A stretch of 64,000 nt of DNA from Chloranthus sessilifolius (Eukaryota > Streptophyta > Magnoliopsida > Chloranthales > Chloranthaceae), in NCBI GenBank assembly GCA_021018995.1, contig CM037585.1, positions 69,566,646 to 69,630,645 of the forward strand, read 5' to 3'. The translations under genes and the position numbers were made by a program. The notes beneath the pieces were generated by a model that worked only from the letters and a program-made list of their open reading frames with translations, made no database searches and had not been told where the DNA came from. Below are positions 423 through 63,560 of the stretch, piece after piece. Every line of letters begins with the position of its first letter. The stretch's first letter is position 1.

Positions 423-2949
423 TGTTGCTACCCCAGCTGTGCTTTCTTTACTTGTTTGTGGTAAAAGAAATTTAAAATCAAAATAAAACAGGGGATGAAA
501 TTAGCACAACTGGGGAGTCCTAGACCTGCAAGATATAGGGTCCATTGTGGCAAGTTTTGATAAGTAAGAGTTTGTCCCACAGGGAAAGGTGATCTACAGC
601 TCCAAGGGAGCCATCTCTAGTAGTCCCTCAAGATCTAACTACAGATATGACAGTCCTAAAAGGAGGGGAGTTTAAGGTCACTTATTCTAAGTATTCTAAG
701 GTAACCTAATGTCTAAACTACAGAAAGGGTTGAGAGGATGGATGGAGTGTGGAAAATAAATATAAAAGGGTGAGAAGTATGTTATTGAGCCTAGATCAGA
801 GGAGCTTTGTAACTCAGATTCAGATATGATGTTATAGAAATCCTGTCCAATGGCTACGTTATCACCACTGAGGAGAAAGGATCCAACCCATCTCTCTGCC
901 ATGATTCAATCCCTTAAGGTTATAACCTGTCCACTCAAATGGTCACAGACTATCCCATAGGGGAACCACAATCCAGGGATGGGTCAAAATAAGTTAATCA
1001 TTGTAGGCACTATTTCATCCAGGTTACCAGCTCAAGAATCCATAGGGAACCTCAACCTCTAAAGCTCTATGTGTGGGGCTAAGGCTGTATAGGACCATGA
1101 TAGCCCAGACACATAGAACCAACAAGATTTTGAGTACAACCTTCGATCTAGCTGTCCATTGCTTGAGTGAGGCTACAATGGTCCAGTCACAAGCCTACAA
1201 TCTCTATAACCAGATCAGATCTAACATCTGATAGCGGATCTATACAAATATAGGGGAGTCTGCCTTTGTACAATCTCCCACCAGGCTAATACAAGCTCAG
1301 GTTTAAAGAAGAAAGATCCATCTTGGATCGGTGGATTAGAATCACCCTAAGGCTATAACCTGTCCACTTGAATGGTCACAGACTATCCCAGAGGCTATCC
1401 TCCTCACGGAGCCCAAGACAAAACAAGAATATCACTGCCACCACCATGGTTACAAGGCTACCAGCTCAAGCTCCCACGGGGATTTTAGATCTAGTGGGTC
1501 CTGTGGTGGGGCTAAGGCTATATGGGACCATGATAGCCCAGACACATAGGTCACTTGGATCTGAGTGGCCCTTAGAATCAATCCCCCATTGCTTTGAATC
1601 ACAGCCAAAGCAACGGCGGATCACAAGGCAGCAGCTTTGCACAGAGCATCTCACATTCAAACACAAATCCCATAATGTAAAAAAAATCCTATTACAGAAC
1701 TTCCGTTAAACAAGTTCAAAATGCATACAAAGATATAGCCAGCAAGTGCTGGACTATGGAGAGAAGGAAAAAGAAAAAGGAAACTACTTACATCTACAAA
1801 AAGAAAAGAAAAATGATCTCAGATCAAGTCTCCAAGAAAATGAGATGTGTTCCCAGCTATTCCAGGATGCCTAAACCTAAGCTAAGTATGGGTTTATATA
1901 GTAGTGGTGTGGCGACGCATTAGGGTTAGGAAACCCTAATTTTAACGATGCCGCGTGGCCTAATAGTGATCCTTGGATGCCTCGAGGCGCGTGCACGGAG
2001 ATTTAAGCGTGGGAGTGCATGCCCTAATCACTGGAAATTCTTAAAAAGTCCTTTACTGAAGCGATGGAAATTGAAGTTTCGAGCTTCGCTAGGTAGCTAT
2101 TATTTCCCAGACTTGTCGCATGGTAGCTCTTGCTCTTCGCGAGGATGGTTTGACATTGAAGCTTCAACCGTCGCGAGGTTGCCTTAGTTTGCTCTTCAGG
2201 CAGTCGCGCAGTAGAGAATTGCGCTCTCGCTGGATTGGACTTCACGAGGTTGAGTAGACATCAAAGCCTCAGATATCGCGGGGTTGGAGTTCAAGCAGTC
2301 GCGAGGTAGCTGCGCATTCGCTGGGTTGATCTTCGCGAGGAAGGATTTGAATAGCGCGAGAACTGCACGATCACTTTTCTTCAATGGACTTTGCGAGTTA
2401 CCTCACAAGGCTTTAATGAGTTCTAAATTGTGCGAGGTTCCATGTCTTAATTGATCTTCGCTAGGCTGGCTCTGCCTTAGCGAGGATGCTTTCTTCTCGA
2501 ATGGCGCGAGAACTGTGCGAGGAGTTCTCTTCTGATAATTACATCCCGTGGCGACTATGCGACAGCTGTGCGAGGAGTCTTCTGAAGCTCTCTCTCTCCT
2601 TAGCTGCTCGGCGCGAGGTTGAGAGAGGTCTGAACTGCTCTACTCTTGAGTTTCGCGAGAGCTGCACGAGTTTATACTTCTGAAGCTCTTCAGTTACTCA
2701 ACTGCCCGAGAAGTTGTTGTAAAGTCTTGGGAAGCTCAGTTGGACTGTGCGAGGCTCATTTCAGGTCTGGATTCAGGGTTCATCCTTCTGAGGGACTTCT
2801 GGTGCCAAAACAGGCTCCTTAGCAGGATTCCTGGCCTTATTTCACTACTGATTATTACCTACATAAAATACTTCACATGAACTTATTAGATGGCTAAGGG
2901 TCTCATCAAAGGTTAAGGGGTGAAAAGTGGTACTTTTCATGTCTTAACA
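423..2949 (-). mobile_element. Solo LTR D (Athila-type), 2527 bp
   Basis: It starts TGTTGCTACC and ends CTTAACA, and is flanked by the 5-bp duplication CTTGC (418-422 and 2950-2954). The uninterrupted A-family copy near 26930 shows the empty site. Its sense strand (minus) starts TGTTAAGACATGAAAAGTACC-like sequence, close to the start of the LTRs of element B, so it is a related family. A TATA box lies at about 1893-1900 (minus). It contains an internal duplication of about 435 bp (near 905-1337 and 1338-1770) and an array of CGCGAGG-like motifs. There is no primer site or polypurine tract, so it is a solo LTR. Confidence 0.88.
2080..2760. promoter_or_regulatory. Motif array of solo LTR D (CGCGAGG type)
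   Basis: About twenty copies of TCGCGAGG or its variants (TGCGAGG, GCGCGAGAACTG, TTCGCTAGG) occur every 25-40 bases in otherwise non-repeated sequence. On the sense strand the array spans roughly bases 190-870 of the LTR, upstream of the TATA box. No function is shown; see findings. Confidence 0.7.
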
Positions 2950-3244
2950 CTTGCTTTCAACGATTGATGTATTCCAGATTTCTCTCCTTGATAACAACAG
3001 CAGAGATCTTACGAGTCTATCTTCATCAATCTTCTCAGATCCATGATTAGTCAAACTTCTAATTAAAGAGTTCTTCTAATTCTGTTCTTAGCGGTGATAG
3101 TCTTCACATGATCATCAACAATAAAAATAACAGGAAAGCTTCTATAATCATAATCACAATCCACAATTATCTTTTTTCAATACAGGAAAGCTTCTATAAT
3201 CATAATCACAATCCACAATTATCTTTTTTCTTCTTTTTCTTAGA

Positions 3245-3450
3245 AAATCGTAAATCACGATTTTCTATCTTTCATAGCTTCCATAGTAGACAACGATCGC
3301 TTTCTTCTATATCGCCTTTTACTCTTTTGTCACCTTCTGAAGAATCGTACATTACGATTTCTCATTTTTCTTTTATTTTTGGCTTCAGTATTAGCGCTCA
3401 GTTATAAAATATGATTTTTCAGCTTTCAATAAGTGACGAATCGTCTTCTT
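3245..3450. promoter_or_regulatory. Motif array of the left A LTR (AATCGTAAATCACGATT type)
   Basis: Near-palindromes AAATCGTAAATCACGATTTT (about 3245) and GAATCGTACATTACGATTTC (about 3342), plus shorter variants such as GACGAATCGTC. The right A LTR (27160-27400) and the solo copy (56400-56560) carry the same array, so it is a family feature. Confidence 0.65.
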
Positions 3451-3623
3451 ATGCTCAATCGCCTTTTTATTATTTTTTGAGTTCATTTTGATGAATATTA
3501 ACACTTTGACTCTCTTTTATTATTTTTCTTTAATATCTGCACATCAGCAACTTATTAGTAGCAAACTAAGTCCTAGAATCACTAAGTTAAGGGTGATAAA
3601 ATAGTATATTCTGTGACTGATCA

Positions 3624-8185: not shown

Positions 8186-9119
8186 GAAAAAATGTGTACA
8201 TGACATCAAGGATAATCAAAGATAACAGGGCATGACTATGCATGGTATCGTGTATGCGAGAACATTAGACGCCGATAACACATTTCAAAACAGACTAGTA
8301 TAATGGAAACTTGCATATCAAACATAAACTGCAATTTAGTAGCATCATGCATCATCATATATCGAAACTGAATCGTCATATCCATACAAAATTAGATGTC
8401 AAATCTAAACTTGTATCCTGATTCATAAACATTCATCTAACCTAATCTAGCATAAGCCTTCATAGTTATATTTCGAAACTAATTTTATCCTTATCCTACA
8501 TATCATGCAAAAACATATATTGACATTTACTCTATCATCATCATCAAAACTAACATGAGCACATTCATACAAAAGTATTCGTCTATAGCATTGATCATGA
8601 ATAGTACATCAAAACTGACTGGCATCATTATTCATCACTATGCATCAAAATTGACTAGCATCATTATAAATCTCTAATCATTATTCATCATTATGCATCA
8701 GAACTGCCTGGCATCATGTATACAAACTGAAACTAGTTCATCATATATAACCAAAATTGACATAAGTATAACTATACCTACCCATACATGATCATATAAT
8801 AGTCATCATCAATAATTTGCTATCTAAATGAGAATGAAGAAACAAAATAAAATTTAATAAGGTAAATTCCCTACCTTAATTGAAGCTTATGTGTATCTGC
8901 TTACACGCGCATGCGTGCATCCACGAAAACATCTGCTGTTATGAACGCATCATGTGCACCGAGCACCTATGAGTTTCGTTCAATTGTTTTGGCCTTTATA
9001 ATGGGTTACTGGGTCACCATAGACCCTATATATATATAAAATTTATGGTCACTACTCCTTAGAGTTAACACACAACAAAGTTAGTTAAACAGGAGGCATA
9101 ACAAAGCAAGAACAAAGCC

Positions 9120-9212
9120 CAGACACAGGCCTGCCTCGGCAAGCCATAGGGTTGCCGCGGCAAGCTCCCCAGCTGAGCACCTTGCCGCGGCAAGCTCAAG
9201 CCTGATGCTCAA
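9120..9212. promoter_or_regulatory. Motif array of LTR C (TTGCCGCGGCAAG type)
   Basis: Three copies of the palindrome half or whole: CCTCGGCAAG, GTTGCCGCGGCAAGC and CTTGCCGCGGCAAGC. They are GC-rich islands in AT-rich sequence, at about 57-60% of the LTR length, where LTRs I and J have their TCGATCGATCGA arrays. Confidence 0.6.
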
Positions 9213-10453
9213 CTTGTCATGGTGCCTTCTGGCTCCTCTTTTGCTTTCTGGGTCTTTTGGTTTGCTGGCCATTTACCCTATATGTAAATAGTATATTGCC
9301 TATTAACACTGATATATTGCCTATTCTCTATTGCACCTAGAGCTTAGTTTATATATTAAATCTGACATGAAAGATCCGGAGTGTGATAATCGGAGATTTC
9401 GACTCCGACACCCTTGTAAATTTATATTTCTGTGGGCTGCCAATTCGATCCTATAGAATTGACACCACAAACCTATACTTTCTCATAACATGAATCCAAA
9501 GGAAACTACTATATAGGTCATATTACAACATACCTTTTTGGTGGACTGTTTGTGTACGATAACGCCGAATTGGTATCGAGTTTGCCGAGCTCGTGAACGT
9601 TTTACCGAAGCTAGGTCCATAAAGATGCTCTGAGACCCCGGGTTTGTCTGTCGAAACTCTTATGACCGAATCGTAGGGTCGCCTTATTACTCAAGGTTTG
9701 AAGCCAAGGTTTGAAAAGATTGAATGGAGAATTGGATTTGGGAAGCTAGCAGCAGAGTTTAGTTTTTCTTATTTTACTTTGGCCGTTTTGCTGTGTGCTA
9801 TAGAGTTTGGAATTTGTTAAAGGTTGAAGCAGGAAGAAGAAGAAGGCTCTATCGAATTTTATAGTGGTTTAGCTGCACTTTGCGTGCATGGGAGTCAAGA
9901 ATGACTCATGTAGTCATGTTCATCTATTGGCAGAATAATCAACTTATAAGCCGTTTAGAGTTGAGCTCCCCTATTGAGCCCACACTAATCTGCGGTGTAC
10001 AAGCATATAAGCCAAATAAGGCTTACCTTTTATATAAATCTCATACACTATTTAAGTGTATCAGCTAGTAGGGGCTGGAATCCCATGCAGTGCCTACATG
10101 GGCTTTTCAGTGTAGATGCTTATAAGCCATTTAAGGCTTGGCTTTGCTATACTGCTAACATATGGTTTATGTATAAGGCAGCTGAAATTTGGCTTTAGTA
10201 TAAAGCAAATACTTAGTTACTATATATAATTATAGAGTAGCCCTTTTATTCTGTGTATTTGCTAATAAACTTTTATGATATATGGAAGATCATAATTCAA
10301 ATGTATGTGTAATACACTATATTTCTGTGTATGAATGACCGGGTTTGACGAACAAAATTTACTGGCCACTAAAGGCCTCCTATTCTTATCAGTGTTGAAC
10401 ACCACATTAATTAATTCTTTTGTGTCTCGTGTCAGGCACACGACTGACCCGAC

Positions 10454-12374
10454 TATTGGCTTCTTACCTTGTGTTCAAAAAGACGTTTAAAATCACACAA
10501 TTAAATGATCTATTGGTTGCGCACACTAAGACAAGTAGACACACAGACCTGCAAGTATTCAGGGCCTGTTGTAGCATGTTTTAAAGGGTAAGTAAGGGTA
10601 TGTCCACAGGGAAATGTAGCTGAAAATTAAGTAAATCTCCAAATCTAAGGCTGATCTGACACCCTACCTAATACTAAAATAGCAAAAGATAGAGGAGAAG
10701 TTTTAAGGGGTTATCACTTTAAACTAAACTACAGAAACACAATTAAATGCAGAAATGAATTGAGATTAAATCCAGAGTTCAGATCTTGCAAGTGAGGGGA
10801 ATATTTGGTGAAATTGGAAACAGAGAATGGAGAGGAACAACTTGGAGTTTGGTCTTGCTGCAATTGGATTGAGCTGACAGTGTCATAAAGAATTTAGAGT
10901 GCATCAATCCCTCATCTGGCTATAAGCACAGCTGCAGGGTAAAAGGATTTGATCTAAGCCAAAAATTTGAATTGATCTTAAGGCTATGATCTGTCAACTT
11001 CAATGGTCACGGATCATCCAATAGATTTACCTCATTCACAGGTTTCCATCAGAACATTATAATCACTACAAATGTTGCAACTGCCAGGCCACAGACAGAC
11101 AATTGTAGGAACATCAGATTTAGGGAGATCAAATGGTATCTAAGAGGTCTACCAGTTAAGTGGGTGAGCTATTCCCATCTACATAAATTCGATCGAGCAC
11201 GAAATAAAATCAGATGAACTATGGATCAAATTAAAATAATAAAACCAGCATTGCATTGAAACAAAATCACTATATAATGAAATTCTCTCAGATTTGTAGT
11301 CTGTGCATCATCTGACCCTCAATAACACTCTCAACTCTTCCCAATTACAGATTCAACCTCACTCCTTGTTGCTTCGAAGAAATTAGCTAACCATAGTTGG
11401 GCAAAAAGGAAGAATAGAGAATTTCGATGCAAGCTTTGATATCGAGAATTAATCCCCCTTTTTTCTGGCAGCTTCCCTCCTTATATAGCTCTCCCCTTCA
11501 GCCTCAGATATGTTTTTCCCACCAATCACAACTCAGCTAGAATAATTCTGTTATTCCCTCTTTTATTCTCCTTCTAGAAGGCTCTCTCAGTTAGTTAGAG
11601 TTGGGGGAGAGCACGTGGGTCGGTTAGGGTCTTCCAGGGCACTTCTAGCAACTTCGTGTCGGTCACCAGAGTGCCTCGGATTGCATGCAGCAGGTCACCA
11701 ACTTGCAGCGTGTGCACAACAGCTTTTCTGAGAAGTCCTTCAGTCAATTTTGATAGGTTCTTGAGGCTTTCGACAGGTTCCAAACAGGCCTTCTATTTCT
11801 TTCGCTAGGATTCAGGATCCTTTCGATCGGTTCCGATAGGTTGATGCTGAAAATAAAGCTCCAGCATCCACAGCCTTCATCTGGTGTGTTCGACAGGTTG
11901 GGGGATCCTTTCGATAGGTTGATTTCTGTGCAATAAGTTTCAATAGGTTCTCTTCTGGCTCCTATCGACAGGTTTTCAGACTTTTCGATAGGTTCTGTTC
12001 AAGCTCAGGCAACCATTCGATAGGATGCTCCCTTTTTATTTCCGACTGCGCGATAGGTTCCGGATCCTATCGAATTCTCCCATCCTCACGACTTTTTCCT
12101 TTTTTTAGCCTTCATATCCTATCGACAGGTTTCAGTAACCTCTCGACAGGTTGTTGTTAGCCTGTTTTCACTCCTTCAAAGTTGCTTTGCTATTGCTGTA
12201 TGCTCTAAGTGGGCCATTGTTGGGTTTGAACTACACTGAGAGATGGATTTCTGCACTATGACTTCCTTTTATTGCTATTTACAAGACATACTCAACAAAC
12301 ATTTATTAGTCCACTCATAGGTCTATCAAAGCTCATGTTAAGGGGTGAAAAGTGGTACTTTTCAGAGATTAACA
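10454..12374 (-). repeat. Left (3') LTR of element B
   Basis: Plus-strand ends are TATTGGCTTC and ...GAGATTAACA, so on the sense strand it runs TGTTAATC...GCCAATA: a TG start but a TA end. The right LTR shares that end, so the non-standard terminus predates insertion. The TATA box CTTATATAG (minus-strand TATATAAG) is near 11480-11488. A TATCGATAGG-type array at 11745-12150 lies upstream of it on the sense strand. Confidence 0.9.
11745..12150. promoter_or_regulatory. Motif array of left B LTR (TATCGATAGG type)
   Basis: About fourteen copies of TTTCGATAGGTT, TATCGACAGGTT or TTCGACAGGTT at intervals of 20-40 bases. The right LTR repeats the array at 22105-22515, and a third cluster of the same motif lies inside the element at 14345-14695. 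Confidence 0.75.
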
Positions 12375-12390
12375 CGCCCCCAAACCTAAG
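12375..12390 (-). other. Polypurine tract of element B
   Basis: Next to the left LTR the plus strand reads CGCCCCCAAACCTAAG. The element strand is therefore CTTAGGTTTGGGGGCG directly before the LTR start TGTTAATC. A similar tract sits at the matching place in element A. Confidence 0.8.
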
Positions 12391-15190
12391 CTTTGCTAGT
12401 CCCTGAGCAAAGGAAGAATAAAGAAAACTAAAATGCCACTTTTGTAGGGAGCACATATGTATTTAGCATATGCATCAAGCCTTTTGAACCCCTAGGTGAT
12501 CCCTAGTGGAGGAGTGGAGTCTCTTGAGGATTTTCAGTGAAGGAACCCCCAAACTTCTCCAATAAAATTAGTTAATAGTCATGCAACATGCTAAAACAGA
12601 GTTCAAGTAAAATAAAATAAATTCCACACCATGTCCCTTCAGTTTTAGAGGATTTTCTGTAGAAAAATCATCAGTTTAAAATATGAAATTCTGTTGTAAT
12701 TCTTTCATCATCAATCAGTCCATGTCAAAGCATTGTGCCTGAAAATTAATGCAGAGTTCACCTTTAATTTAAGAATTCTGTTTTGATAATGCCCCAATCA
12801 ATTTTTTTTTCAGACCCAAATCTTACCGGGGCTGTTCACTCATAACAAAAGTAGAAGGGTGCATCATTTCTCATACAGCTTAAGAACAGTTACAGCCCTT
12901 AAATAGGACTGCAAGCATGAGCATAGGCATTGCTCTAACTTCTAAAATTTTCTAACTCTTTTCACCATAGATTAAACAAATCCACGTCTCCACATGATAA
13001 CTCAATCCATTTCAGATCAGTAGGGTCTTTTTTTATTAGGTTGTAATGTGGCTTATGGGTGAAATTTGTAAAAGAATAATGGGGTAAAAAGGATTCAAAT
13101 TGAGAAATCAGTAAAAGTAAGGAGGTGGTCTAGACAACACCTTCTTCATTTCAGCACAATTCCATCTACTTATTGAAATTTTAGATTTGAAGTGGCCAGT
13201 TTCTAATCCTCTTTTCAATCTTTCAATGAAATGACTTCTCTTTCTCATTCCTTTTCTTTGATTTTCTATTTTTCCTTTTCTTTTTGTATGTTTTTCTTTT
13301 TCTTTTTCTTTTTTTTTCATTTTTCTTTTTATGGGTTGGAATGCCACAACACCACCAAATGTGCTTTCTTCTTTCTCAACCAACGATCAAACTAGCTCTA
13401 TCTTCTGAAATCTAAGAGTGAGGGTCAGGCTGTATCAGATCATTGAGGTTTTGGGTTCAAATTTTCTGGTTTTCATCAAAGAAAATTGGGATTTTAAGGC
13501 TCAAATAGTGTGTATCAAGGGCAGTTCAAAGGCCGGACATTTTAAGCTCAAACTGTCCAAGGGATGACCTTACTTCATGTTTTCAATATCATGAATGCTG
13601 TTAAGCTGTTTTAATTTAGATTTGCCTAACTTCTAGTGATCGAAACTAGATCTAATCAGTCCTTAGAGCAGAAAAATTGCCAAGACACTCTTCAAAGAAA
13701 ATTTTTTAGGCCCAAATCTCACTGGGTATGGCCTTCCATCAAATTTTTGGGGTGTATCCTCACAGTTTTCTCTCCTTTCAGGTTCACTAAATATCACTTT
13801 TTGAAAATTCTTGACATTTGCTTCATGAAAAATGCTAAAACTACAGCTCATTTTAGTTTTAAAAAGTTTTTAATTTCATTTTTTTTTCTCAAAAATCAGG
13901 TGGAAAATCACTTTATTTTCAAAAAGTTTTTCAACATTGCTGTACTAGCATTAACTCATTTCATTGGCATACCCGCCATACCCCCAAACCTAAATTAAAC
14001 AGTGTCCTCACTGTGCAGAGAGCATGGTAGCAATGAACAGGGTATATGAAGAAACAGATGGAAGAATAAGCACAAAGAAAGACTTAACATAATAAAGAAA
14101 TTACTATTAACATCTAAAATATGTACATGGTCCAAAGCAGTAAGAGAAAACAAACAAACATAAACTATATTTATTGACAGGCATCATTTGGCTAGTCATA
14201 CAAATCTGCCAAATTTGTGGGCTGAATGAACTTGAAGAATGGCAAACTGAGTGGCGAAAGGTCCTTAGAGTATTTGACAGAAAATGAGAGCAGCGACCAA
14301 TGAGGAAGAGAGAGCTAGGGTTTTACAGAAAGTGTTGAATGGAGAAAAGTGACCTATCGACAAGTATATAAAGAGTGAAAATCGATTTCGATAGGATGAG
14401 CTGAGTGATTTCGATAGGTCAAAGCGTCCTGTCGAACACTATAAAACATACAACGTGCAGATGAAATGCTTCGATAGGTCAAATCCTTCCTATCGATAGG
14501 TTCATGTAGCGCATGATTCATCCTTTCGGTAGGTTCCTAATAAGTATCCAGAACCTGTCGAAAACTTTTTTCTGACCTTTTGAACCTATCGAAGAGTTGT
14601 TTTCACCTATCGACAAGTCTCAGTGCCTATCGAAGTCCTCAAATGACCTATCAAAATCCTCAAATGACCTATCAAAAGGTCAAATGACCTATCGAAAGGT
14701 CCCATATACTCATAGAAACTTCATTTTGTGCTGTGTTCAGCCTCAACACCCAGTAAACTCCTTTGCTGTGCTTCCATTCACGTTGTTTTCATTATTGACA
14801 TACTCCCATGGTCCCTGGACTGCTGGCAAGATTGATATGTTGACCTAATTCTAGCATGGCAATTTTATTGTAAATGAATAAAATATCAAAACAAAAAGTA
14901 ATTACTTCAAACAGAACCAAAATATAGTACATATGATACACATTGAAATCAGGTATAAATTGGAGGGTCCTGAAGATCAATGGTCTCCTCAGGCTCACAA
15001 ATTTTTCAACACAAATTTTTAGCCTCTGCCCATTGACTTTCATGACCTACCATCTATAGGGTCCATGATTTCTACAACCCCAGATGGGGAAACATGTAAC
15101 ACTGTGTAAGGCCCATCCCATCTGGACTGTAATTTTCTTGGAAAGAATTTTAATCTTGAATTGAACAACCATACCTTGTCACCTATTTTG
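12391..15190 (-). other. Non-coding 3' interior of element B
   Basis: 2.8 kb between integrase and polypurine tract without recognisable env-like coding. A Lys/Glu-rich open stretch at 13108-13383 is a product of the purine-rich strand and is not called a gene. A second polypurine-like tract lies at 13981-13998 (CCCCCAAACCTAAATTAAAC on the plus strand). Confidence 0.6.
14345..14695. promoter_or_regulatory. Internal TATCGATAGG motif cluster in element B
   Basis: About thirteen copies of ACCTATCGA, TTCGATAGGTC and related forms between integrase and the second polypurine-like tract. They match the motif of the element's own LTR array, although the surrounding sequence is different. At 14640-14700 the copies are spaced about 18 bases apart (TCAAATGACCTATCAAAA). 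Confidence 0.7.
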
Positions 15191-15192: not shown

Positions 15193-16209
15193 TTATTTCC
15201 GTAGCAAGTGCCTGCCATGAAAGGCTTTAGTTTTTTCCTTGTAAATCCGGGCATTTGAATATGCTTCCAACCTTAACTCATCAAGCTCAAATAATTGCAA
15301 TTTCCTGTTCACACCAGCAGAAGTTAAGTCAGAATTTAATATTTTAATGGCCCAATATGCTCTATGTTCTAACTCAACAGGCAAGTGACATGCCTTGCCA
15401 TATACTAGCTTGAATGGGGACATCCCTATGGGGGTCTTATAGGCAGTCCTATAAGCCCACAAGGCATCTGACAGTTTTATGGACCAATCTCTCCTATCAG
15501 TTCACACAATTTTCTCTAGGATGTGTTTGATTTCCCTGTTGGAAATCTCTACTTGCTCACTGGTTTGTGAATAGTAGGGAGTAGCAACTCTGTGGGTCAC
15601 AGAGTATTTTTTCAACAGTTTTTCAAAAGGTTTATTGCAAAAGTGGCTTCCTCCATCACTAATAATAGCTTTAGGGGTGCCAAACCTAGAGAAGATGTTG
15701 TCCTTTAAGAACTTAATGACAACCTTATGATCATTTGTTCTTGTAGCTATGGCCTCTTCCCATTTGGACACATAGTCCATAGCTACAAGGATGAAATTAT
15801 ATCCATAGGAGGGGGAAAAAGGTTTCATAAAATCAATTCCCCATATGTCAAATAGTTCAACAACAAGCACAGGTTGCAAGGGCATGGAGTTTCTTTTTAT
15901 AATACTTCCCATTTGCTGGCATTTAGAACAAGCTTTGCAATGCTGTATGGCATCCTTGAACAGAGTGGGCCAATAGAAAACACTTTGAAGCACCTTTGCA
16001 GCAGTCTTGTTGCCACTGAAATGGCCCCCACGAGCCTGTTCATGATACATGGTTAGAATGTTTTCAAACTCAATTTCAGGTACACAACTTCTTATCACTT
16101 GGTTTGCATAATACTTAAAGAGGTGAGGATCCTCCCACATGTAATATCGAATTTGTGAGAAGAACATATTCCTATCATCCTTACTCCAATGTGGGGGTAC
16201 CCTTCCCAC
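15193..16209 (-). pseudogene. Integrase region of element B
   Basis: The N-terminal part contains the His/Cys zinc-binding set ([13 protein letters not shown] followed by [12 protein letters not shown]). The core follows with [24 protein letters not shown] and a downstream ISNREIK, consistent with the Asp-Asp-Glu triad. The C-terminal stretch [20 protein letters not shown] and the [13 protein letters not shown] segment are characteristic of plant Ty3/gypsy integrases. It is part of a broken gag-pol. Integrase would insert the DNA copy into the host genome. Confidence 0.85.
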
Positions 16210-16236
16210 AGCAAGATAGTTTACTATGTTAGCAAA

Positions 16237-18039
16237 CTAGGGCATACTTATCTCCACAGCAACAAGCTGCTCATCTGGGAAAGAATCATTGATGGGCAAG
16301 CTCTTTATTTCAGCATCTGGAATCCTTGATAAGTGGTCCGCAACCACATTTTCAACCCCCTTCTTGTCTTTGATTTCCAAGTTGAATTTCTGTAGAAAAA
16401 GAATACATCTAATTAATCTAGCTTTAGCCTCATTCTTAGATAAGGGGTATTTCAAGGCTGAATGGTCAGTAAACACAGTGATCTTGGATCCCAACACATA
16501 TGATCTGAACTTTTCTAAAGCAAATACAATGGCTAGCAGCTTCTTTTCAGTTGTGGTGTAGTTCAATTGAGCATTAACCATTGATTTACTAGCATATGCC
16601 ACCACACATGGTGCTTTGTCTTTCCTTTGTCCCAGCACTGCATCAATGGCAAAGTCTGATGCATCACACATCAGCTCAAATGGAAGAGAAAAATCAAAAG
16701 CTTGCAATATAAGAGTAGTAGTCAAACAGGTCTTCAATAGTTTAAAAGCAGCTAGGCATTCATCATTGAACACAAATGAAACCTCTTGGCACAACAAGTG
16801 GCAAAGAGGCTTGAAAATTTTACTAAAGTGTTTGATGAACCTCCTGCAGAAACCAGCATGGCCCAAGAATGACCTGACTTGTTTGACAGTTTTAGGAGGG
16901 GGTAAATGTGCTATTAAATCAATTTTAGCTTGATCAACCTCTATTCCTCTTCGGGAAACAACATGTCCTAAGATAATACCTTGAGTCACCATGAAATGAC
17001 TCTTTTCCCAACTCAAAACCAGGTAGTTCTCCTCACACCTTTGCAGCACAAGGCTGAGATGGTGCAGGCATTGGCTAAAATCATCTCCAAAAATAGAGAA
17101 ATCATCCATAAAAATCTCTAAAAACTTGTCAATCATGTCAGAAAAAATAACATACATACATCTTTGAAAAGTGGCAGGTGCATTACATAGTCCAAATGGC
17201 ATTCTTCTATATGCAAAGGTTCCAAATGGATAAGTAAATGTGGTTTTTTCTTGATCTTGAGGGTAAATAAGAATCTGGTTATATCCTGAATAATCATCAA
17301 GAAAATAGTAAAAAGCCTTACCTGCCAACTTATCTAAGATCTGATCTATAAAAGGCAATGGGAAGTGATCTTTGCTAGTTTTCTCATTGAGCTTGTGATA
17401 GTCTATGCATACCCTCCAACCAGTGGTCTGTCTGGTTGGAATTAGCTCACCTGAGTCTACTTCAACTACTGTGATCTCAGATTTCTTGGGCACCACCTGG
17501 GTAGGGGCCACCCATTGAGAATCTGAGATAGGGTAAATGACCCCAGCATTAAGAAGTTTGACTACTTCCTTCATTACAACTTCCTGCATGTGTGGGTTGA
17601 GCTTCCTTTGCATCTCTCTAAAAGTTTTAGAGCCCTCTTCAAGATGAATTTTGTGCATGAACACAGCTGGATTTATCCCCCCCAAATCTGCAATAGTCCA
17701 CCCTATTACTCTCTTATACCTTTTTAGCACACAAAGCAATTCTTCTTCCTGCTCAAGAGTGAGGGAAGAAGAGATTATCACTGACAGTTTGTGATTGGCT
17801 CCTAAAAAGGCATATTTTAAAGATTTTGGGAGTTGCTTTAACTCCACATTTGGGGGACTGATGAGTGAAGGCAGTAAGGGTGCCTTAAAAGGTGGTGGAA
17901 GAGGTAATAAAGTAGGAGTCCATGGGTGATGCTTTGCTGGCCCTGCTTCATAATTTACACTTTCCACTTGCTCAAGCTCAGATGTGGAAGCTTTCTCTTC
18001 CACTGTTTTATTCCACATTTCTTCAAAAACATTAAACAA
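16237..18039 (-). pseudogene. Reverse transcriptase and RNase H region of element B
   Basis: A 600-codon open stretch. The reverse transcriptase part includes WRVCIDYHKLNEKT, FYYFLDDYSGYNQI, YRRMPFGLCNAPATFQRCM and the active-site FMDDFSIFGDD, then LGHVVSRRGIEVD and VRSFLGHAGFCRRFIK. RNase H follows (LMCDASDFAIDAVLG, YTTTEKKLLAIVFALEKFR, VFTDHSALKY), ending with VADHLSRI. The order is standard for Ty3/gypsy Pol and the sequence is of Athila type. The long open stretch shows that this part has decayed little. Confidence 0.9.
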
Positions 18040-18057
18040 ATCATTATCATGCAGCAG

Positions 18058-18480
18058 CTAAGGTAGATTTTCTTGCACAAACTCATCCAGCACATCAATA
18101 GAAAAACAGTCCTTATTTTCTAAGTGGGGCTGATGGGTTGTATTGTACATGTTCAACTTGACTTTCATGTTGCCAAAAGATACTTCCATGACCCCTGATC
18201 TACATTGTATATAAGCATTTACAGTGGCAAAAAAGGGCCTGCCTAAGATCACAGGGATAGAAGTAGCATACTTGCTCGACTCCATATCCAGCACCAGGAA
18301 ATCAGCAGGATAAAAGAATTTATCAACCCCAACCAAGACATCTTCAATGATCCCCACAGGCTTCCTTTCAGATCTATCAGCTAGTTGTAAGACCACATGT
18401 GTGGGCTTCAACTCTCCTAAACTCAGCTTCTCATATACTGAATATGAAAGCAAATTCACACTAGCTCCTAGATCTAATAA
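18058..18480 (-). pseudogene. Aspartic protease region of element B
   Basis: The minus strand encodes a retroviral-type protease: an Asp-Leu-Gly-Ala-Ser active-site version just upstream of NLLSYSVYEKLSLGELKP, followed by FYPADFLVLDME and the Ile-Leu-Gly-Arg-Pro-Phe flap-end motif (SIPVILGRPFFATVNAYI). It lies between gag and reverse transcriptase, the usual order, and would cut the Gag-Pol polyprotein. Confidence 0.82.
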
Positions 18481-18671
18481 GGTTTTTCAATGGTATGATC
18501 CCCAATAATGCAGGGGATAGTGGGGACTCCAGGGTCTTGGAGTTTTGTTGGAGTTGTAATAGTCAGTATTTATTTCACTTTTTCTGCTGAAAAGACTTTC
18601 TTGGACAGATGTATCCTTGATTGTCTTTTGTGGGTGCAAAGGTCTTTTAAAAACTTGGCATAGGCTGGAAC

Positions 18672-22736: not shown

Positions 22737-22795
22737 CCGACCCGTGTCCGTATAAAATATTTTAGGTTTTAAAATATTATAGTTGTTATAATAAT

Positions 22796-41039: not shown

Positions 41040-41093
41040 TTTTATGTTTAGAGATAATTGCATTGATGGTGCCACATGGAATAATATTTTAAT

Positions 41094-41126
<33 letters not shown>

Positions 41127-42195: not shown

Positions 42196-42226
<31 letters not shown>

Positions 42227-43670: not shown

Positions 43671-43678
43671 GCGATCTT

Positions 43679-47225: not shown

Positions 47226-48560
47226 ACCCGGGAACTTAATGGTATAAACCTAGGGTCTTGCCCAAGGCTATGTAAGAGACCAAAGGCTGACCTAATCATG
47301 TCTTGGGTTTCCCCCGTGGTTTGTACCCGTGACCTTCTTTCAACTGAAAGGGTCAAGCCCTAACCCCGAGCGTCAGAAATTCACTACGATTGATGAAGGT
47401 CTACCCTAAGGCAACCCGATTAATCCTAATTCTAGGCTTAGATTAGGGAGGTCTAGACTCCACCATATTGCCCATAGTCTTACCCATGAGTGCTTGACTT
47501 AGGACTGTGCCATTTGAGCTTGACTCATGAGTTGAACCCTATGGTTTATATTAAAACATGGTTTAAATAACCTAGACCTAGTAGTATGAACCATATGAAC
47601 TCGACCATATTGACCCTTAACTGATACATGATTCGAACCATATGGACCTTAACTGACCCATGGTCCGAACTGTATGGACCCTAATTGACCTATGATCTGA
47701 ACCATATGGACCCTAACCGACCCATGGTCTGAACCATATGGACCCTAATTGACCTATAGTTCAAACCATATGGACCCTAACTGGCCCATTGTCTAAACCA
47801 TATGGACCCTACATGGTCTAAACCATATTGATCCTAACCAACCCATGGTCTAAACCATTCGAGCTCTAACTTATGTATTAAACCATTTGAACCCTATTTA
47901 CCATGATCTAACCCTAGGAACCATACCAATGGTCTACACCATTGTAGCTCTGACTCATGGTCTAAACTATATGAATCCTAACTGGCCCATGGAACCTAAT
48001 TGATCCATGGACCCTAATTTACCCATGATCCAAACCATAGGGACCTTAACTGACACATGGTCTAAACCATATTGACCCTAACCAACGCATGGTCTAAAAC
48101 TATTTCTCTTATTGTGAACCATTCGATTCCTAATTGACCCATGGTCTGCCCTTATGAACCATACTGCACCAACTCAACCCTGAGCCAAGGCTAACCCTAG
48201 TCTGAACTATTTAGACCTTAAAGGGATATAATTATCATGGCTAAGGCCAAAACCTAATTGGTGACATACATTATGGTTAAGGTCATATCCTAAGGGATAT
48301 GCGTATTTGACTAAGGTCAATCCCTAAGAGCCATAATTATTTAGCTATGGTTGAACTCTCACCCAAACGAGAACTAAACATATATGACTAAGATCAGATC
48401 ATAAGGGATCACAATTACCTAACCCTAAGGGGTCACACATATCTGAGCCAAGGCTAACCCTAGTCACATATGGGGATCACTTCAAACTTGACTAAGGCCA
48501 ACCTCAACCTAGAGAAAGTCACATCACAATCAGTAGAGACTCAAGCTGGATACATATACT
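47226..48560 (+). repeat. Degenerate tandem arrays right of the hAT element
   Basis: From about 47590 to 48130 roughly sixteen copies of a 32-bp unit (GGACCCTAACTGACCCATGG followed by TCTGAACCATAT) occur with much decay. From about 48200 to 48480 a second, longer unit follows (CTAAGGTCAATCCCTAAGGG plus ATATAATTAT). No coding. It is the continuation of the relic at 39701-40173, so it predates the hAT insertion. Confidence 0.7.
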
Positions 48561-48991: not shown

Positions 48992-51176
48992 TGTGACAGC
49001 TCAGGTTTCGGCACCCTGAAGCCCGCAACGTCAGTGGGCTGGCGCTAAGGCCGAGCCCCCGAGCGAAGCACGTAACGTACAGTTTCACAGTGGAAAACAA
49101 AGCAGAACCATGCCCAATGAATCATCATAGCAAAAAAAGAGAACTAGTACTATTCTTCAAAAGATCAAAATGACGATTGTAATTCCATATGATTCCTTAT
49201 GAAAAAAGAACCGACAAGAACCACCGGTAAGGGTCGTACCTTACCGAAACATGATTCACAAAAAAAAATACAATCATTTACAAAATTTACATCCTTTACA
49301 ACCAAAGTTAAACCAACACATCCTGAATCCTAGGGCCGGACCTACTCTAGCCTAGTACAAAGAAAGCAGCTCTCAGGGTGAATCTCCTCCAAGTCCTCCC
49401 CCGAAGCTAGCTCAGAATCTTCCCTCTCGGAAATCCTGGTATTAATGTCTTCACCTGAACCTGTGACATATTGTCGAGGAATGAGCTTCATCCAAACACA
49501 GTAAGGAAAAACTTATAGCATGCTTATTATAACGACAAACATAGATCTTATGGCATAATGAAACAAAATAATTGGGACATATGCATAGTGTATGGTCATG
49601 GCATGAAACATAGGTACAAAGCTTGTTCGAAATTCAAAAGAGATAGGTCCACATCTTCTTCCAACACAAGAAAAGAAAAACTTAAAGTGGTATGCTTAAA
49701 TTAATAGAATGAGGAGCTATAGCCTTAAGCTCCTGATGGAATACCCACCATTGTCGCTCATATGAATCATTTTCACATATATCCAAGGTCCCATAAAGTT
49801 AGACGCTTGGTCGAAAATGCACGGATGCACATGTCCTTCCAAATTGAATTCGTAACCATACATATAATCGAATCAAAGAAAACGTCATGTCATAACACAC
49901 ATGTTAACATAACAATACACATGGTGTCAAGGTTTCCTTACCTCAAGATCTTAACCCGCACTAGCTCACACCGCCATTTGGGTTAGCCTCTTCATCATAC
50001 AATACTAAGTCACCTAAGATATAAAATCTAATGTTCACTCATTAGAACAATGCTAAACATGTTAGGATAACTCCCCTCAAAATCTCACAGTCAAAACTTA
50101 CCAAAATTCTGAATCTGAGAATTTTGATCAATCGAATCCCAATTTTGATCGATCAAAATCACGTTTTAATCGATCAAACTAAATTCGATCGGTCGAGCTC
50201 TCTTAGAAGTCAAAAATCAAACATAGTTCGATCGAACGAATCTCCTTTCGATCGATCAAAAACTTATAATTCGATCGATCGAAAATATTTCGATCGGTCG
50301 AATCTTCTAAAAGCAATTTAGCTATCACACAGATCGATCGAATGAATCTTACTTCGATCGGTCGAAAATCAAATTCGATCGATCGAATATATTTTTGATC
50401 GATCGAGTTCTCACAGAGGGTTTTTCCATGCTCCTGTTTATATACATTTTGATCGATCGAGTGTGAGATTTGATCAATCGAATATGCTTTGTTCGATCGA
50501 ATTTAACTTCGATCGAACGAATTTTACTCAACTTCGATTTTCATATATTTAAGTCCATTTCGATCGATCGAATTCAATTTTGATCAATCGAAATGAGCGG
50601 ACTCCAGCAGTTCTAGGGTTTTCACCCTCGTTCTCATCTCCTCTTCAAATCAAACCCGATTCTTGCGTGTTCTTGATCTTAAATTACATAAAAACAACCA
50701 CTAAACACACATTCAAGTTTAAGCCTTAGTTTATGTACCTTGATTTCCTCTGGATCTCCAATTCCTAGCGTCTAACCTTGCCTAGGGTTTCATCGAAAGA
50801 TCAACGGCTCGTTCGTTGCTTCAAATCTGTAAAACAATCTTCGAAAACGGATCAAACTCACATCCCTAAGCAATCAATGCCCTAGTTGCCCCTCTCTCTC
50901 TCTTCTTAACTCCCAGTGATCTGCAATAACTAGGGTATTGAATGGTTATAATTCCTTTTATAACCTAAGTCTTAGGCTTTGATACAAAGCGGTCACGCCT
51001 AGGTTGGGTGTACGAACATGCACTAACCCTCAACCTAGCCTACATACGTCAAATCCCATCCGTTGGATTTGATCTATAGACATTGCATAGACTATCGATA
51101 CTGTCTCTGACGTGTAGACCATCGGCACACATACCGAGGCAATTAGTTCTAGGTCTAAAATATTTGGGACGTTACA
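48992..51176 (+). mobile_element. Solo LTR J (Tekay-like), 2185 bp
   Basis: It starts TGTGACAGCTCAGG and ends GGGACGTTACA, flanked by GACAA (48987-48991, 51177-51181). It shares the start and end with LTR I and carries the same TCGATCGATCGA motif array, but lacks the 60-bp tandem array, which accounts for part of the length difference. No interior. Confidence 0.88.
50125..50600. promoter_or_regulatory. Motif array of LTR J (TCGATCGATCGA type)
   Basis: About twenty copies of TTCGATCGATCGAA or near forms (TTCGATCGGTCGA, TTTGATCAATCGA), spaced 15-30 bases, at 52-74% of the LTR length. Confidence 0.75.
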
Positions 51177-56199: not shown

Positions 56200-57631
56200 T
56201 GATCAGTCACATAATTTATCATTTTATCACCCTTAACTTAGTGATGCTAGGCTATAGTTTGCTACTAACGAGTTACTGATGTGCAAATATTAAAGATAAG
56301 CAGTAAATTAGAGCCTAAGTATTAATCTTTGTCAAAATGAACTCAAAAAGTAATAAGAAAGATAATTAAGCAAAAAAGACGTTTTTTCGCCTACTGAAAG
56401 CCAAAGAATCGTAATTTACGATTCTTCAAAAGAGGCAAAAGGAGAAAAGCGATAAAACATAATTAAGAGAAATCGTCAACTATAAAGAAGCTATGAAAAA
56501 TAAAAAATCGTGAATTACGATTTTATAAAAATAGAAGCTTTTTTCTACTATTGCTGCTATTGCTAATTACGTGAGTTTAATACCGCCATATCCAAAATTA
56601 GAAGACTCCTGCAATTAGAAGTCTGATGAACCATGGATCTGAGAAGATTGATAAAGATCTAATCCGAAGGACTCTGCTGCTGCTTAATAAAGAATAATCC
56701 AGAAGCGCATCAACAAAAGAAAGTAAGGAAATATAAAATTAGAAATTAGAGTTATATTAGGAATCTTTTGTTTTTAGTAGTTTCTTTGGTTAGAACTAGA
56801 TTTTTGTAAACCGACCCCTTATGATCTATAAATAAAAGGGCTCGGCATAGGAATAAGCATCGAAGAATTTTAGTATCAATTGACGCTTGAGGTTAGATTT
56901 TCTTTCGATAAAAGTAGTGTATACTAGTTAGAGTAGATTAGATATCAGAGGTTTCTCAAGAGCAATTGATGACTGCAATTGAGTGCTGAAGATTAGTATA
57001 GATATCTGTAATTTCTCAGGAGCAATTGATGACTGTGGCTGAGGGGTGAAGGATATATTTTATTTTGCTTTCTAGTTTAAATTTTATTTGCTTGTAAACA
57101 TCGCCAAGTTTTATTTTAAATTGACGACTCCGGTTAGAATTTGCAGATTAGTGTAACAGTTTTTACTTTTCCATCTTCAGTTTTCTAGAGTTTGATTGAC
57201 GCCCAAATTTTTGATTAATTATTGATTAGATTAAATCTGTATTGATAGGATCTTAGACTTGATTGACGACCAATACTAGGAGACTAGAAATATAATATAA
57301 CAGTACTATTTATTTTCATAAATATCCAAAAGTTGAAGATTAAGATTGACGACCTTAATCTAAAGAAGGAGGATTAGGATTTATTTTTATGCACTTTAGT
57401 TTAATAACCCATTCTTTTATTTATATTTCTCCAGTAGATTAGAAAATCTTAAAGATAAATAAAAATTTTTATGATAGGGATTTAGATAAAAGGTATAAAC
57501 TAGGAATTAATAAGATAATGAACTTCTTTGTGGGAACGATCCTATGCTAGTAATATAATTTTCATTATACGCTTGCAATAGGTTAAGACTTGAATTTAAT
57601 ATAATTATAATACATAAAAAGAATCGAGTCA
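56200..57631 (+). mobile_element. Solo LTR of the A family, 1432 bp
   Basis: It starts TGATCAGTCACA and ends GAATCGAGTCA, flanked by AGGGT (56195-56199, 57632-57636). It aligns over its length with the LTRs of element A in the opposite orientation. TATA box TATAAATA at 56827-56834. The U5 part (GGGAACGATCCTATGC, TACGCTTGCAATAGG) is of the usual Athila kind. It defines the LTR ends of element A. Confidence 0.9.
56400..56560. promoter_or_regulatory. Motif array of the solo A LTR
   Basis: GAATCGTAATTTACGATTC and AAATCGTGAATTACGATTTT plus shorter GAAATCGTC forms, at bases 200-360 of the LTR, upstream of the TATA box. Confidence 0.68.
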
Positions 57632-58533: not shown

Positions 58534-59960
58534 TGTAGACACCCCAATTTTGCCCTCTTAGAGTATACAAACCTATTCGATCAAACTTTGACCTTACCCA
58601 CGATCTCTGATAAAAGACTGACTTTCTTTGAAGACCTTAAAACCCTAAATACGGGGACCATTATTGAAACAAAAGTATATGGTTGATCCTAGGCTGTAAC
58701 AATAGATTTATAGTTCGGACCCGACTTAGCTCGAGGAAGATCCCGATTTCTGCACCCTCACAGGAGCACGCAATTCGATTGCACGCATGGACACATGTGC
58801 GCAATTGGTCCCCTTTGGACCAAATTTATCCTTCCCATGGGCTGCCTTACGATTTGATTACCCGCCATATATAGTGTGCGCAATCAGATTGCACGCCACA
58901 TCACTGGCGAGCAATTAGTCCAGCTGGGACCGAAACTCCACCTTCCGTAGACCGCCTTGAGACTTGATTACATGCTCTCACCAGTGCGGGTAATCGATTA
59001 TGCGCTCTGACACCCGTGCGTGGTTGGTCCCTAGTTGGATTGGGCCTCTAATTCCCATGACCACCCAATTCTCCTATTATGCACTTGTGAACTGACGCTT
59101 AATTGGATTGCGCGCACTGTACAGGGCACGCAATTAGTTCCAATTAGACTGGAACTAGGATACCCGGCTAAGTTAGTCAGCCGGTCACTCACTGAGTCGG
59201 TCACCGACTCAGAGTGGTTAAGCGCCCGGTACATGGCGCGTAATTCAATTAGGTGCACGAGATAGGGCTCGTAATTGGATTTGACCGACCAATTACGCAC
59301 CTCCCACAGGGCGCGTAATTACCCGTATACCTATAAATAGACCCCCTACCTCATCCAAAACACAATTCACATTCAGGCCTTGAGTCCCTCTCTTCCTAGC
59401 TTAGGATTTGGAGACCCCCTTCTACGGTGATCAGCTTCAAGTAATCTCTTTTAGTTTCTAATTTCTAGTTCTAGTTCTTAGTTCTAGCTTCTAGTTCATA
59501 GTTCTAGTTTCTAATTCTAAGTTTCTAGTTTTAGATCTTAGGTTTTGATTCGTAATTCTTAATTTCTAAGTCTAGTTTCTAGTTTTAATTTCCAATTTCT
59601 AGTTCTCAGTTTCTGGTTCTAGTTCTTAGTCACTAGAACCAGTTCTTAGCCTTTAGTTATTAATTTCTAGATTTTTAATCCTAAGTTCTAAATCTCAATT
59701 ATTTTTTTAAAATTTTTAGTTCTTTATACCTAATTCTAGTTCCTAAATTTTCAAAATTCTTAGTTCTAACTTTAAATCCTAATCTTTAAAATTCCTAAAT
59801 TTCGATCTTCAAAATCTTAACTTTTCAATTCAAATTTAGTTTTCCAATCTCTAATATTTATAAAACAATCCTTAGCCACCTGATTTGCTCAAGCGAGCTT
59901 ATGGAGGGCACTCAGGAACGGGGCTGATCCTCCTTAGCGTAATGGGTCACAACTCTTTTT
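58534..59960 (+). repeat. 5' LTR of the plus-strand Tat element (right end uncertain)
   Basis: U3 from 58534 to the TATA box at 59332-59339 (CCTATAAATAGACCCC), then R-U5 with a low-complexity stretch of TTCTAGTT words (59447-59840). The LTR end could not be placed; a primer site is not recognisable. Confidence 0.55.
58760..59320. promoter_or_regulatory. Motif array of the Tat LTR (GCGCAATTGGATTGCGC type)
   Basis: About twelve copies: GCACGCAATTCGATTGCACGC, TGTGCGCAATTGGTCCC, GTGCGCAATCAGATTGCACGC (each written in parts: a half GCGCAATT and its inverse ATTGCACGC), GGCGCGTAATTCAATT and others. The last copy ends just before the TATA box. Confidence 0.7.
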
Positions 59961-61850: not shown

Positions 61851-62025
61851 CAACATATTTTGCCTTCTTAGTGGCTAAAATCTCATCTGATTCCCACCAG
61901 AACGACCACGACTTTGGCCTGCCAACCTTGACTATAGTAAGTTCTGCGCTTTTCATTGATACACAGGTGTGCGACCGTGGATCCTCTCGAACCCGTCGCG
62001 GCAATGCGCTCACTTTTAATGAAAA

Positions 62026-63560
62026 TGTAGAGTCACCACCCGGAGCTTTTGGTGACCCGGGAAACCTTCAAATCGATATTTTGAGCACCGAAGTGCTAAA
62101 TATGACTCTGATTTACCGGTCTTTGACAAAGGCTCTAGGGTAGGGGCTTTGGTTATCGATCGGAAAGGGTTTAGGCACCCGATCAACCCGCACGTAGCGG
62201 TCTCTATCTATGGCCAAAATAAAAAAAAAAAGGGCGGAGCTTCCCCTTGCCCGAAGGCAATACGGTCCTATCAAGCTTTGAGCCAAACCGAAATTTCGGC
62301 GGCGTAACGGCTTGAATCCTTGGACGAAGGAGACACCAAGAAGGTAGAGGAAGAGAGGGGTGAGCCGGAGCTCATGGGCCCTTGTTGCACCGTGGAAGAT
62401 CTTCGCTTTGGCGTGCTTCCGATGGCTTAAATGGTGTGAAAATGGATTCTAATGCTAGGATTCAATAAAATAGGAAGTGTAGGGTAAGGCCAAAGACTAG
62501 ACTTTAGCTAAAAGGAGTGATCTAATGGTTGAAATGAATTGGAAAAGATGAACTAAGCTTGCTGAAATTCTGGAAAATAAGTGCATTTTCTTTCACTAGG
62601 GTTCTCTCTTGAGCTCCAAATCCTTAACCTCCAATTTTTTCTAACCCTTAAGGAAGAGGGGGGCCTCTCTATTTATAGAGAAGAGGTGGATTAGGGGCTT
62701 ACTTAAGAGCTAATGGGTTCAGCAATTAGGTAATCCCCCATCTAAGGTTTTCTAGGTTTTCAAGGTCCTTGGGTTTTGGGAGATTGATTTTAATGGCAGA
62801 TGATGGGGTGAGACCATGGGTGACTTAAGGGTTGCCAATAAGCTCCAAGAGGGTGCAATCAAGCTCATGACACCCACCTTAACTAAGGGGATGGTCAAAG
62901 GGTCAAACTAGATGGAGGAAATTTGAGCAACCGATGATAGTTACTGTAGCTAAGCTGGGCGTATATATTATATACGCCCAATTTAGGAACAGTAAATTTC
63001 ACCAAAATTAGGGGAGTTTTGAGAAGATGAAGCCCGTGGTGGGTCCCACCTATACTAGGCGTATATATTATATACGCCCGGCCAAATTTTCCCCAAAATA
63101 GGCAGGTGTATATAATATATACGCCTGACTAATCTGGGGCAAAAATGGCTGGGCGTATGTAATATGTATGCCTGAGTAAAAGTCTTATGATTTTATGTGA
63201 AACTTCAATCAGCCATAACTTTCGAACCGTAGCTCCAAATTGGGTGATCGTTGGCTTGTTGGAAAGCTAGAGAAGTCCTCTTTCCAATGATATATGGCTC
63301 ACCCTTGGTAATGGTCTATGTAAAATTCTATAGCCCTCCTCCCATCAACTGCCAGAAGGGTTTAAGGTAGGTCTGGGAAGGGATTCTAGGGTGTAGGGGT
63401 GACTTCTAAGGATTGGGGGAATGGCTCTAAAGGTCTTAGGGTGATTTCTACTGGTCTAGGTAGGTTCCTAAGGGCTCAGGGGGTGCCATCGGGAGCACAG
63501 GCGTACATCTCTCCCGAAGTACAGATTTATCGGGCCTTGGGCCGAATTTGGGTGTCTACA
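62026..63560 (-). repeat. 3' LTR (G) of a second Tat/Ogre element, minus strand, 1535 bp
   Basis: Sense start TGTAGACACCCAAATTCGG at 63560, sense end GGTGGTGACTCTACA at 62026. Plus-strand 62026-62200 is the complement of the conserved U5 segment of Tat elements (GGGTGCCTAAACCC, CCCGGGTCACC, GGGTGGTGACTC). The TATA box complement TATTTATA lies at 62670-62677. The motif array is at 62940-63185. The right side joins a polypurine tract, so the interior continues right. Confidence 0.8.
62940..63185. promoter_or_regulatory. Motif array of LTR G (GGCGTATA / TATACGCC palindrome)
   Basis: Four copies of an extended palindrome GGGCGTATATA-TTATATACGCC or variants, centred near 62968, 63069, 63121 and 63162. 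They are spaced 40-100 bases and separated by C/G-poor sequence containing CCAAAATTAGG-like words. On the sense strand they precede the TATA box. Confidence 0.78.

Follow-up and report, generated by a model that had tools for sequence, protein, structure and literature searches.

Family-specific arrays of short words in long terminal repeats of nested Chloranthus sessilifolius retrotransposons: candidate operator arrays that recur ahead of an accessory gene

The arrays considered in this study consist of many copies of short words and lie in the long terminal repeats (LTRs) of retrotransposons nested in a 64 kb stretch of Chloranthus sessilifolius DNA (contig CM037585.1, positions 69,566,646 to 69,630,645), referred to below as the window. 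Comparable arrays have been described in Sireviruses, Ty1/copia elements whose repeated motifs are family-specific, mostly palindromic words present in many copies upstream of the LTR TATA box, with CpG clustering and, in all but Tnd-1, a CGG-CCG core (Bousios et al. 2010, PMC2829016). In the same report, 77 of 79 linker copies lie upstream of ENV, in which its authors see support for an internal ENV promoter. In the VANDAL elements of Arabidopsis, the element protein VANC binds family-specific short words in non-coding parts; demethylation was shown, and tandem-repeat formation was described (PMC5735166). Among LTR retrotransposons, a sunflower Athila element has a sense open reading frame (ORF) with Transposase_32 similarity (PMC11728184), Grande has a nuclear protein expressed in antisense from its own promoter (PMC7264820), and in Retand the region from pol to the 3' LTR carries tandem repeats that are specific to the family (PMC11963269). 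Del LTRs have plastic CpG islands in a variable CpG-rich part of a gypsy LTR, for which an escape from silencing was proposed (PMC4029996), and a marked drop in LTR methylation was reported for one Athila clade of sunflower, a shaping of methylation by Athila proteins being left open (PMC12844716).

The arrays in the window are real and exceed shuffled expectation. The whole 64 kb of nested plant retrotransposon DNA was read by eye, and a listing of words across the window found ten motif groups at the places where the initial annotation had claimed at least nine LTR families with word arrays. In a site count test with refined matrices and 200 dinucleotide shuffles for each of 14 stretches, the shuffles never reached the observed count in 12 of the 14, although this test was not blind, the seed words coming from that annotation and each matrix being refined on the tested stretch itself. 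The two other stretches are C, whose count was reached by 4/200 shuffles, and A3 (1/200). A blind scan of 319 scan windows of 400 bases, comparing the best 8-mer on both strands with 60 shuffles, gave z>=4 in 28/319 and recovered the D, both B LTR, F, H, I and J arrays. The A, C, T and G arrays were not recovered by this 8-mer scan of the window; they hold few long copies. The scan also flagged a foldback element (26.4-27.0 kb), GAT repeats in coding sequence (43.6-44.2 kb), a 60-base tandem repeat in I and the leader of T; since ordinary repeats are flagged too, a repeated word by itself is not special. All groups of the initial list were thus present, and two arrays missing from it, the B linker array and that of LTR K, were added (Table 1). 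In the genome (2.17 Gb searched for copies; the best 40 or so scored for each of A, B LTR, B-linker, F, J and T), the array stretch is retained in copies of A, B LTR, B-linker, F, J, T and the D type, as had been expected of copies of one family.

The B word is not confined to the LTRs, which are 92% identical by self-alignment (10454..12376 and 20817-22737). Its array recurs inside the B element, up to an internal TATA box and a leader with AAACCCTAGC. A genome search with this linker gave 2,087 first-look candidates, and among the best 40, which were scored, 39 were other genomic copies at 87-94% identity. In 30 B-linker loci, the window's included, the internal TATA box CTTTATATAC was exact in 19, and a match to the accessory protein (E<=1e-4) stood behind the linker array in 27, with no match at that threshold in the window copy (L009), L011 and L019. 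The accessory ORF was also searched in the genome (46,426 first-look candidates, 127 scored), and 20 places at 75-86% identity were fetched, 7 picked for having no in-frame stops and 13 from the low end of the list. Upstream of these genes, 6-12 B words were found in 20/20, with 0-1 D words, and TTTATATAC was seen in 10/20. The LTR and linker arrays of B share one 54-base match at 72% and nothing more at E<=0.01, and are therefore not recent copies of each other. In the linker of the A element, three TCGTA/TACGA half-sites precede an internal TATA box (23800-24050), a number reached by 48/2000 shuffles and no more than suggestive.

The comparison of sister families showed that LTR and linker words differ together. 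The 25-base LTR start common to B and D occurs 34,466 times in the genome with <=3 mismatches (reversed control, 0), and a large part of the genome is therefore concerned. In 30 such loci, which were the first listed, all on one contig (C1), and not a random sample, the top word of the best stretch was of the TCGCG type in 26 and TCGATAGG in L045; L051, L057 and L065 had another top word, with ATCCCGCG coming next in L051. Exact counts of CGAYAGG and TCGCGM, respectively, were 13/1 in the B LTR and 12/0 in the B linker (11/0 in the L045 LTR), 0/13 and 0/8 in the D LTRs and 0/11 in the D linker, and 0/3 and 0/4 in the E LTRs and 0/4 in the E linker. Both the D-type element (LTRs L047/L048, 3' half L104) and the E-type element (LTRs L065/L066, 3' half L106) have TCGCG linker words and no B word, followed by a homologous accessory gene. 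A second E linker (L107), placed by its distance from an LTR of the TCGCGCGA type (L063), has 11 TCGCGMRATT-like sites (shuffle mean 1.6, maximum 6) and lacks the B word; next to it begins a D-like accessory gene. Another element occupies the fourth 3' half (L105), and this half tells nothing about linker words. LTR and linker words agreed in 4/4 informative elements, B included, and the words of the B and D/E arrays differ jointly in LTR and linker between the sister families.

Two further observations concern these loci. L057 combines the B/D LTR start with another repeated word (AAGCTGCA-type at first look, ATTTCAGC at second), possibly a further motif class. In L105, long GATTGATC/ATCGATCA arrays of the I/J type occur at 1-1000 and 5601-6800, in the element nested within a D-type element.

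We assign a probability of roughly 0.62 to the reading that these are operator arrays under one sequence-specific DNA-binding factor at the LTR and linker promoters. The arrays would be enhancer-like arrays of double-stranded DNA operators, with many copies of a short recognition word, and a sequence-specific factor bound to the words would control transcription of the element. In the B/D lineage, which we take to be Athila-like (this label, like Tat-like, hAT and telo-box, was given by eye), the LTR array would serve the gag-pol promoter, and the array in the linker that separates pol from the 3' LTR would serve the internal promoter of the accessory gene. One binding specificity, changed between sister families, would cover both arrays of an element. 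As the same word stands at two promoters and both differ in sister families, one factor with changed specificity is the simplest explanation. That a protein binds the words, that it activates the element or protects it from silencing, and which protein it may be (host or accessory), we infer from the sequence.

The factor might be a host transcription factor, for which the arrays would be stress or germline enhancers, never bound by the element's own protein; this is the other half of the operator reading rather than its opposite, and we rate it as a serious possibility, somewhat short of even. Such a host factor would fit the position of the array before the TATA box in six families, and would fit I and J, which have one common word though their LTRs otherwise differ, being alike across the arrays only (blastn). 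Host factors were likewise suggested for Sireviruses, in which database look-ups gave mainly stress-related sites (PMC2829016). The many words found in one genome and the joint change of two arrays fit a changing factor better than a conserved host factor.

To our knowledge, the role of the third ('env-like') gene of Athila-type elements is unknown. Matching arrays at the LTR promoter and at this gene, differing together between sister families, give it a concrete, testable role and furnish, within a single genome, target pairs both cognate and non-cognate. We tentatively propose, while holding it rather doubtful, that the accessory protein, lysine-rich and Transposase_32-like, may itself be the factor, binding the words at its own and the LTR promoters and activating them or stripping silencing. 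What makes it attractive in this role is the place of its gene after the array, the richness of its N-terminus in lysine and its strong divergence between families whose words differ. The lysine-rich N-terminal part is accompanied by a stretch resembling Transposase_32 and, in L032, by a proline-rich tail, and no membrane-like segment was seen in the pieces read, which stop short of the full C-terminus. Matches to PF20167 were below the cut-off of 45 bits (L032, E 0.00065, 20.1 bits; L038, E 0.0057, 17 bits; L033, E 0.19), and two pieces of L034 gave no match to this profile; since the Pfam cut-off was not reached, membership in Transposase_32 was rejected in favour of similarity only. The B and D accessory proteins have 32% identity over 194 residues. 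The A-element ORF fragment matches the B-type accessory protein at 33% over 52 residues (E 2e-05 in a single comparison) and PF20167 at E 0.03, below the cut-off. A protein search with the accessory ORFs of A and B found no relative at E<=0.001, and a search of PDB sequences gave two matches at E 0.9, which are meaningless. If the accessory protein is the factor, the Athila-like LTR retrotransposons of this plant would hold a VANC-like self-recognition circuit whose specificity splits as families split.

Concerning word form, the description as short near-palindromes is apt for A, C, F, G, H, I/J and T, whose words are dyad-symmetric, and nearly so for D. It does not suit B, whose LTR word is mainly directional, with a TCGA core only (14+/1- and 12+/4- in two LTRs); in the B linker, both orientations occur (5+/10-). 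The D word stands on a single strand in the window (15+/0-), its relatives being near-palindromic (CTTCGCGAAG/GG). It had also been claimed that position is kept while sequence differs, which is seen in B and D, where the LTRs align at the start and 3' part and not across the arrays. The B and D words are nevertheless related (TTCGATAGGTT, TTCGCGAGGTT), and a half-site is common to A and F (ATCGTAA, ATCGTGA).

Gaps of 19-22 bases make up 14/22 of the gaps of 12-30 bases in D, C, B, H and F (binomial p 1.9e-05; two from D, five from B), a preference for 20-21 base spacing that holds in some families only. Helical phasing was rejected as a general rule: pooled adjacent gaps of the window peak near 10.2-10.3 bases, but weakly without the 18-24-base gaps (p 0.03 to 0.34 over sets). 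Coherence at 10.5 bases in genomic copies, which are homologous and not independent, was 0.55 in F, 0.27 in B-linker, 0.15 in E and -0.02 in D. I, J, K and part of the B arrays contain tandem units (20-21 bases and about 106-108 bases), such as neutral minisatellites would show if they grew by slippage, decayed and were kept by descent only. We consider this origin very improbable, given that few tandem units were called in the D, F and H arrays, that the same word stands at two promoters without shared spacers, and that divergence is lower in motif columns than in spacers for A, F and B-linker.

This divergence was measured with each copy in turn supplying the mask, without CpG-type columns and alongside scrambled decoys (none for A); in first runs, motif columns had been taken from window sites or the majority of copies, which may favour conserved columns, and these runs were redone with the single-copy masks. 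Motif and spacer divergence were 0.062/0.126 in A (10/10 references), 0.058/0.098 in B-linker (30/30 references) and 0.197/0.294 in F (16/16 references, 16 copies), where it was 0.183 outside the array. The B-linker decoys gave the same direction in 0/2, 25/29 and 9/13, and the four F decoys giving sites in 15/15, 5/6, 6/8 and 2/9. Motif columns also differ less than spacers between A subfamilies (2/34 vs 37/114, p 0.001; 4/34 vs 39/114, p 0.008).

Differences of the CpG type between the two B LTRs account for 7/14 in motifs, 1/16 in spacers and 11/117 elsewhere; the words therefore decay after insertion, which points to their upkeep in active lineages. The ratio of observed to expected CpG, the measure of clustering used here, was greater inside the array than elsewhere in the same stretch in 11/14, the exceptions being C, H and K. 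Both the decay and the raised ratio would be expected if methyl-CG readers recognised a cluster of methylatable CG sites and not a particular word. This model is the least probable of those considered here, as non-CpG word positions are conserved too and C, H and K lack the enrichment.

Folding energy was lower in all 14 arrays than the average over 60 shuffles (z -2.1 to -10.9), the values for eight control stretches being 0.0 to -3.7. Transcribed palindromes might accordingly fold and feed or attract small RNAs, and palindrome-rich LTR regions of maize Sireviruses are said to have a small-RNA role. We regard a hairpin or small-RNA function as unlikely here: the B word is not a palindrome, and the palindrome arms showed no compensatory covariation (10 double changes vs 10.7 expected by permutation), on which ground selection for hairpins was rejected. 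As the words are conserved without arm covariation, protein binding is favoured over hairpins, although the folding energy leaves hairpins some weight.

Besides this folding, several results weigh against operator arrays read by one factor. The concordance of LTR and linker words comes from four elements only, three of them from one contig. Constraint is weak in D (0.172/0.217, 15/16 references), where four decoys lean in the same direction in 11-14/16 with weaker shift tests, and one F decoy has all references in the motif direction, its shift test again being weaker. Once CpG columns are counted, B-linker no longer shows the contrast (0.085/0.098, 89/355 shifts as extreme), and the contrast of motif and spacer is not significant in D with these columns included, nor in E. 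Between A1 and A2, which are close copies, differences are more frequent in motif columns (8/51) than in spacers (13/161). The K array is CpG-poor, and the arrays of C, H and J are not upstream of a TATA box. Family-specific protein-binding arrays are supported, though short of proof. The earlier suggestion of fast-evolving protein binding sites gains from the conserved motif columns of A, F and B-linker, the absent covariation and the word before a second promoter, and its rapid change was shown within the B/D lineage only.

The arrays had been placed in the U3 part of the LTR. This placement agrees with A2, B, D, F, T and G, where the array precedes the TATA box (in the D LTR, the array occupies LTR positions 189-869 and the TATA box is at 1050), and does not extend to C, H and J, where the array follows it; the I LTR has no canonical TATA box near the expected place. 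Good matches to 5' splice sites follow the inferred start region and come before the array in C, H and I, at approximately 9536, 28915 and 32474. A splice donor ahead of TATA-downstream arrays was rejected as a rule and stays a lead: the best-scoring donor of the stretch, by approximate weights, stands ahead of the array in these three but after it in J.

Table 1. Arrays and associated features of the 64 kb window (site counts from the matrix test, with the number of shuffles reaching them).
Feature	Position	Strand	Remarks
D LTR	435..2949	-	Apparently solo, inside A LTR; first part alignable with the B LTR start
D array, TTCGCGAGG-type words	2060..2780	-	D LTR, TATA-upstream; 15 sites, 0/200
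A array, copy A1	3140..3470	-	7 sites, 0/200
C array (TTGCCGCGGCAAG)	9110..9220	-	TATA-downstream in inferred sense; 3 sites, 4/200
B element 3' LTR	10454..12376	-	Array about 11740-12160; 15 sites, 0/200
B linker array, pol to 3' LTR	14340..14720	-	Blind scan z 7.7; 15 sites, 0/200
Internal TATA CTTTATATAC, end of B linker array	14364..14373	-	Sequence reading
B element gag-pol pieces (gag, RT-RNaseH, integrase)	15193..20414	-	ORFs and Pfam; Ty3/gypsy order
B element 5' LTR	20817..22738	-	Array about 22080-22530; 16 sites, 0/200
A-element accessory ORF fragment	22786..23301	-	Distant relative of B-type accessory protein
A array, copy A2	27100..27420	-	LTR about 25860-27559; 5 sites, 0/200
H array (AGCTCGAGCT)	29160..29460	+	TATA-downstream; 9 sites, 0/200
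I array (TCGATCGATCGA)	31790..32350	-	18 sites, 0/200; tandem repeat in part
F array (TCACGATTGATCGTGA)	34550..35100	+	TATA-upstream; 11 sites, 0/200
LTR K tandem array (ACCATATGG, CCATGG), CpG-poor	47600..48100	+	Blind scan, tandem-repeat calls; LTR status by eye
J array (TCGATCGATCGA)	50100..50610	-	TATA-downstream in inferred sense; 14 sites, 0/200
A array, copy A3	56390..56560	+	3 sites, 1/200
T (Tat-like) array	58740..59330	+	TATA-upstream; 7 sites, 0/200
G array (GGCGTATA..TATACGCC)	62930..63190	-	TATA-upstream; 4 sites, 0/200

Other features of the window were recorded alongside the arrays. By eye, a target-site duplication CTTGC was read around the D LTR. LTR K is split by an insertion at 40190-47220, with an ORF at 43691-44401 and later coding-like stretches; we take it by eye to be hAT transposase-like, Pfam giving only a sub-threshold match to another family. 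A foldback-like insertion at 26640-26836, flagged by the blind scan, holds many ACGTATCG words close to the A2 TATA box. The self-complementary stretches 36131-36508 and 41288-41643 form inverted repeats with 387 and 362 aligned bases. The 60-base tandem repeat of the I LTR (31001-31288, 4.8 copies) is apart from the I motif array, and the T leader has short CTAGTTCT repeats at 59452-59626, over which a control stretch folds at z -3.7 vs shuffles. A search with gag found relatives in many angiosperms, with identities reaching 44% (and 53% for one short piece), and a search of viral contigs gave no result.

The elements of the window are Sirevirus-like in their apparent working and not members of the Sireviruses. 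Like the Sirevirus repeated motif, they have many-copy LTR words, CpG clustering and further words in the linker before a third gene (in the B-type and three D/E-type elements). Unlike a Sirevirus, the B element, the only one typed by protein, is Ty3/gypsy, with reverse transcriptase-RNase H (RT-RNaseH) before integrase and gypsy-type domains. The CGG-CCG core is absent from the window families, only C (CCGCGG) coming near, the B word is hardly palindromic, and in C, H and J the array comes after the TATA box. That LTR and linker words differ together from one sister family to another, as seen here, is not described for Sireviruses in the excerpted text of PMC2829016.

Concerning the other systems, in the excerpts of the Athila, Grande and Retand accounts (PMC11728184, PMC7264820, PMC11963269), an LTR-matching word array before the accessory gene, as found here, is unmentioned. 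The variable CpG-rich part of a gypsy LTR is shared with Del, whose excerpted account is without a palindromic word and gives no islands in its eudicot group (PMC4029996). In searches of the open-licence PMC literature, covering listings and the excerpts cited, no such word arrays in Athila or other gypsy elements, and no joint LTR/linker word difference, were found. The comparison with VANDAL and VANC made in the initial annotation is apt as logic, as words differ between families over the whole array (CGAYAGG vs TCGCGM, in LTR and linker). It does not extend to membership, since VANDAL elements are Mutator-like DNA transposons, whereas LTRs and a gypsy pol are present here, and the candidate factor is Transposase_32-like. 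The closest documented case is the Sirevirus motif, which that annotation did not name, and, if upheld, the present reading would carry what is known of Sirevirus motifs over to Ty3/gypsy elements.

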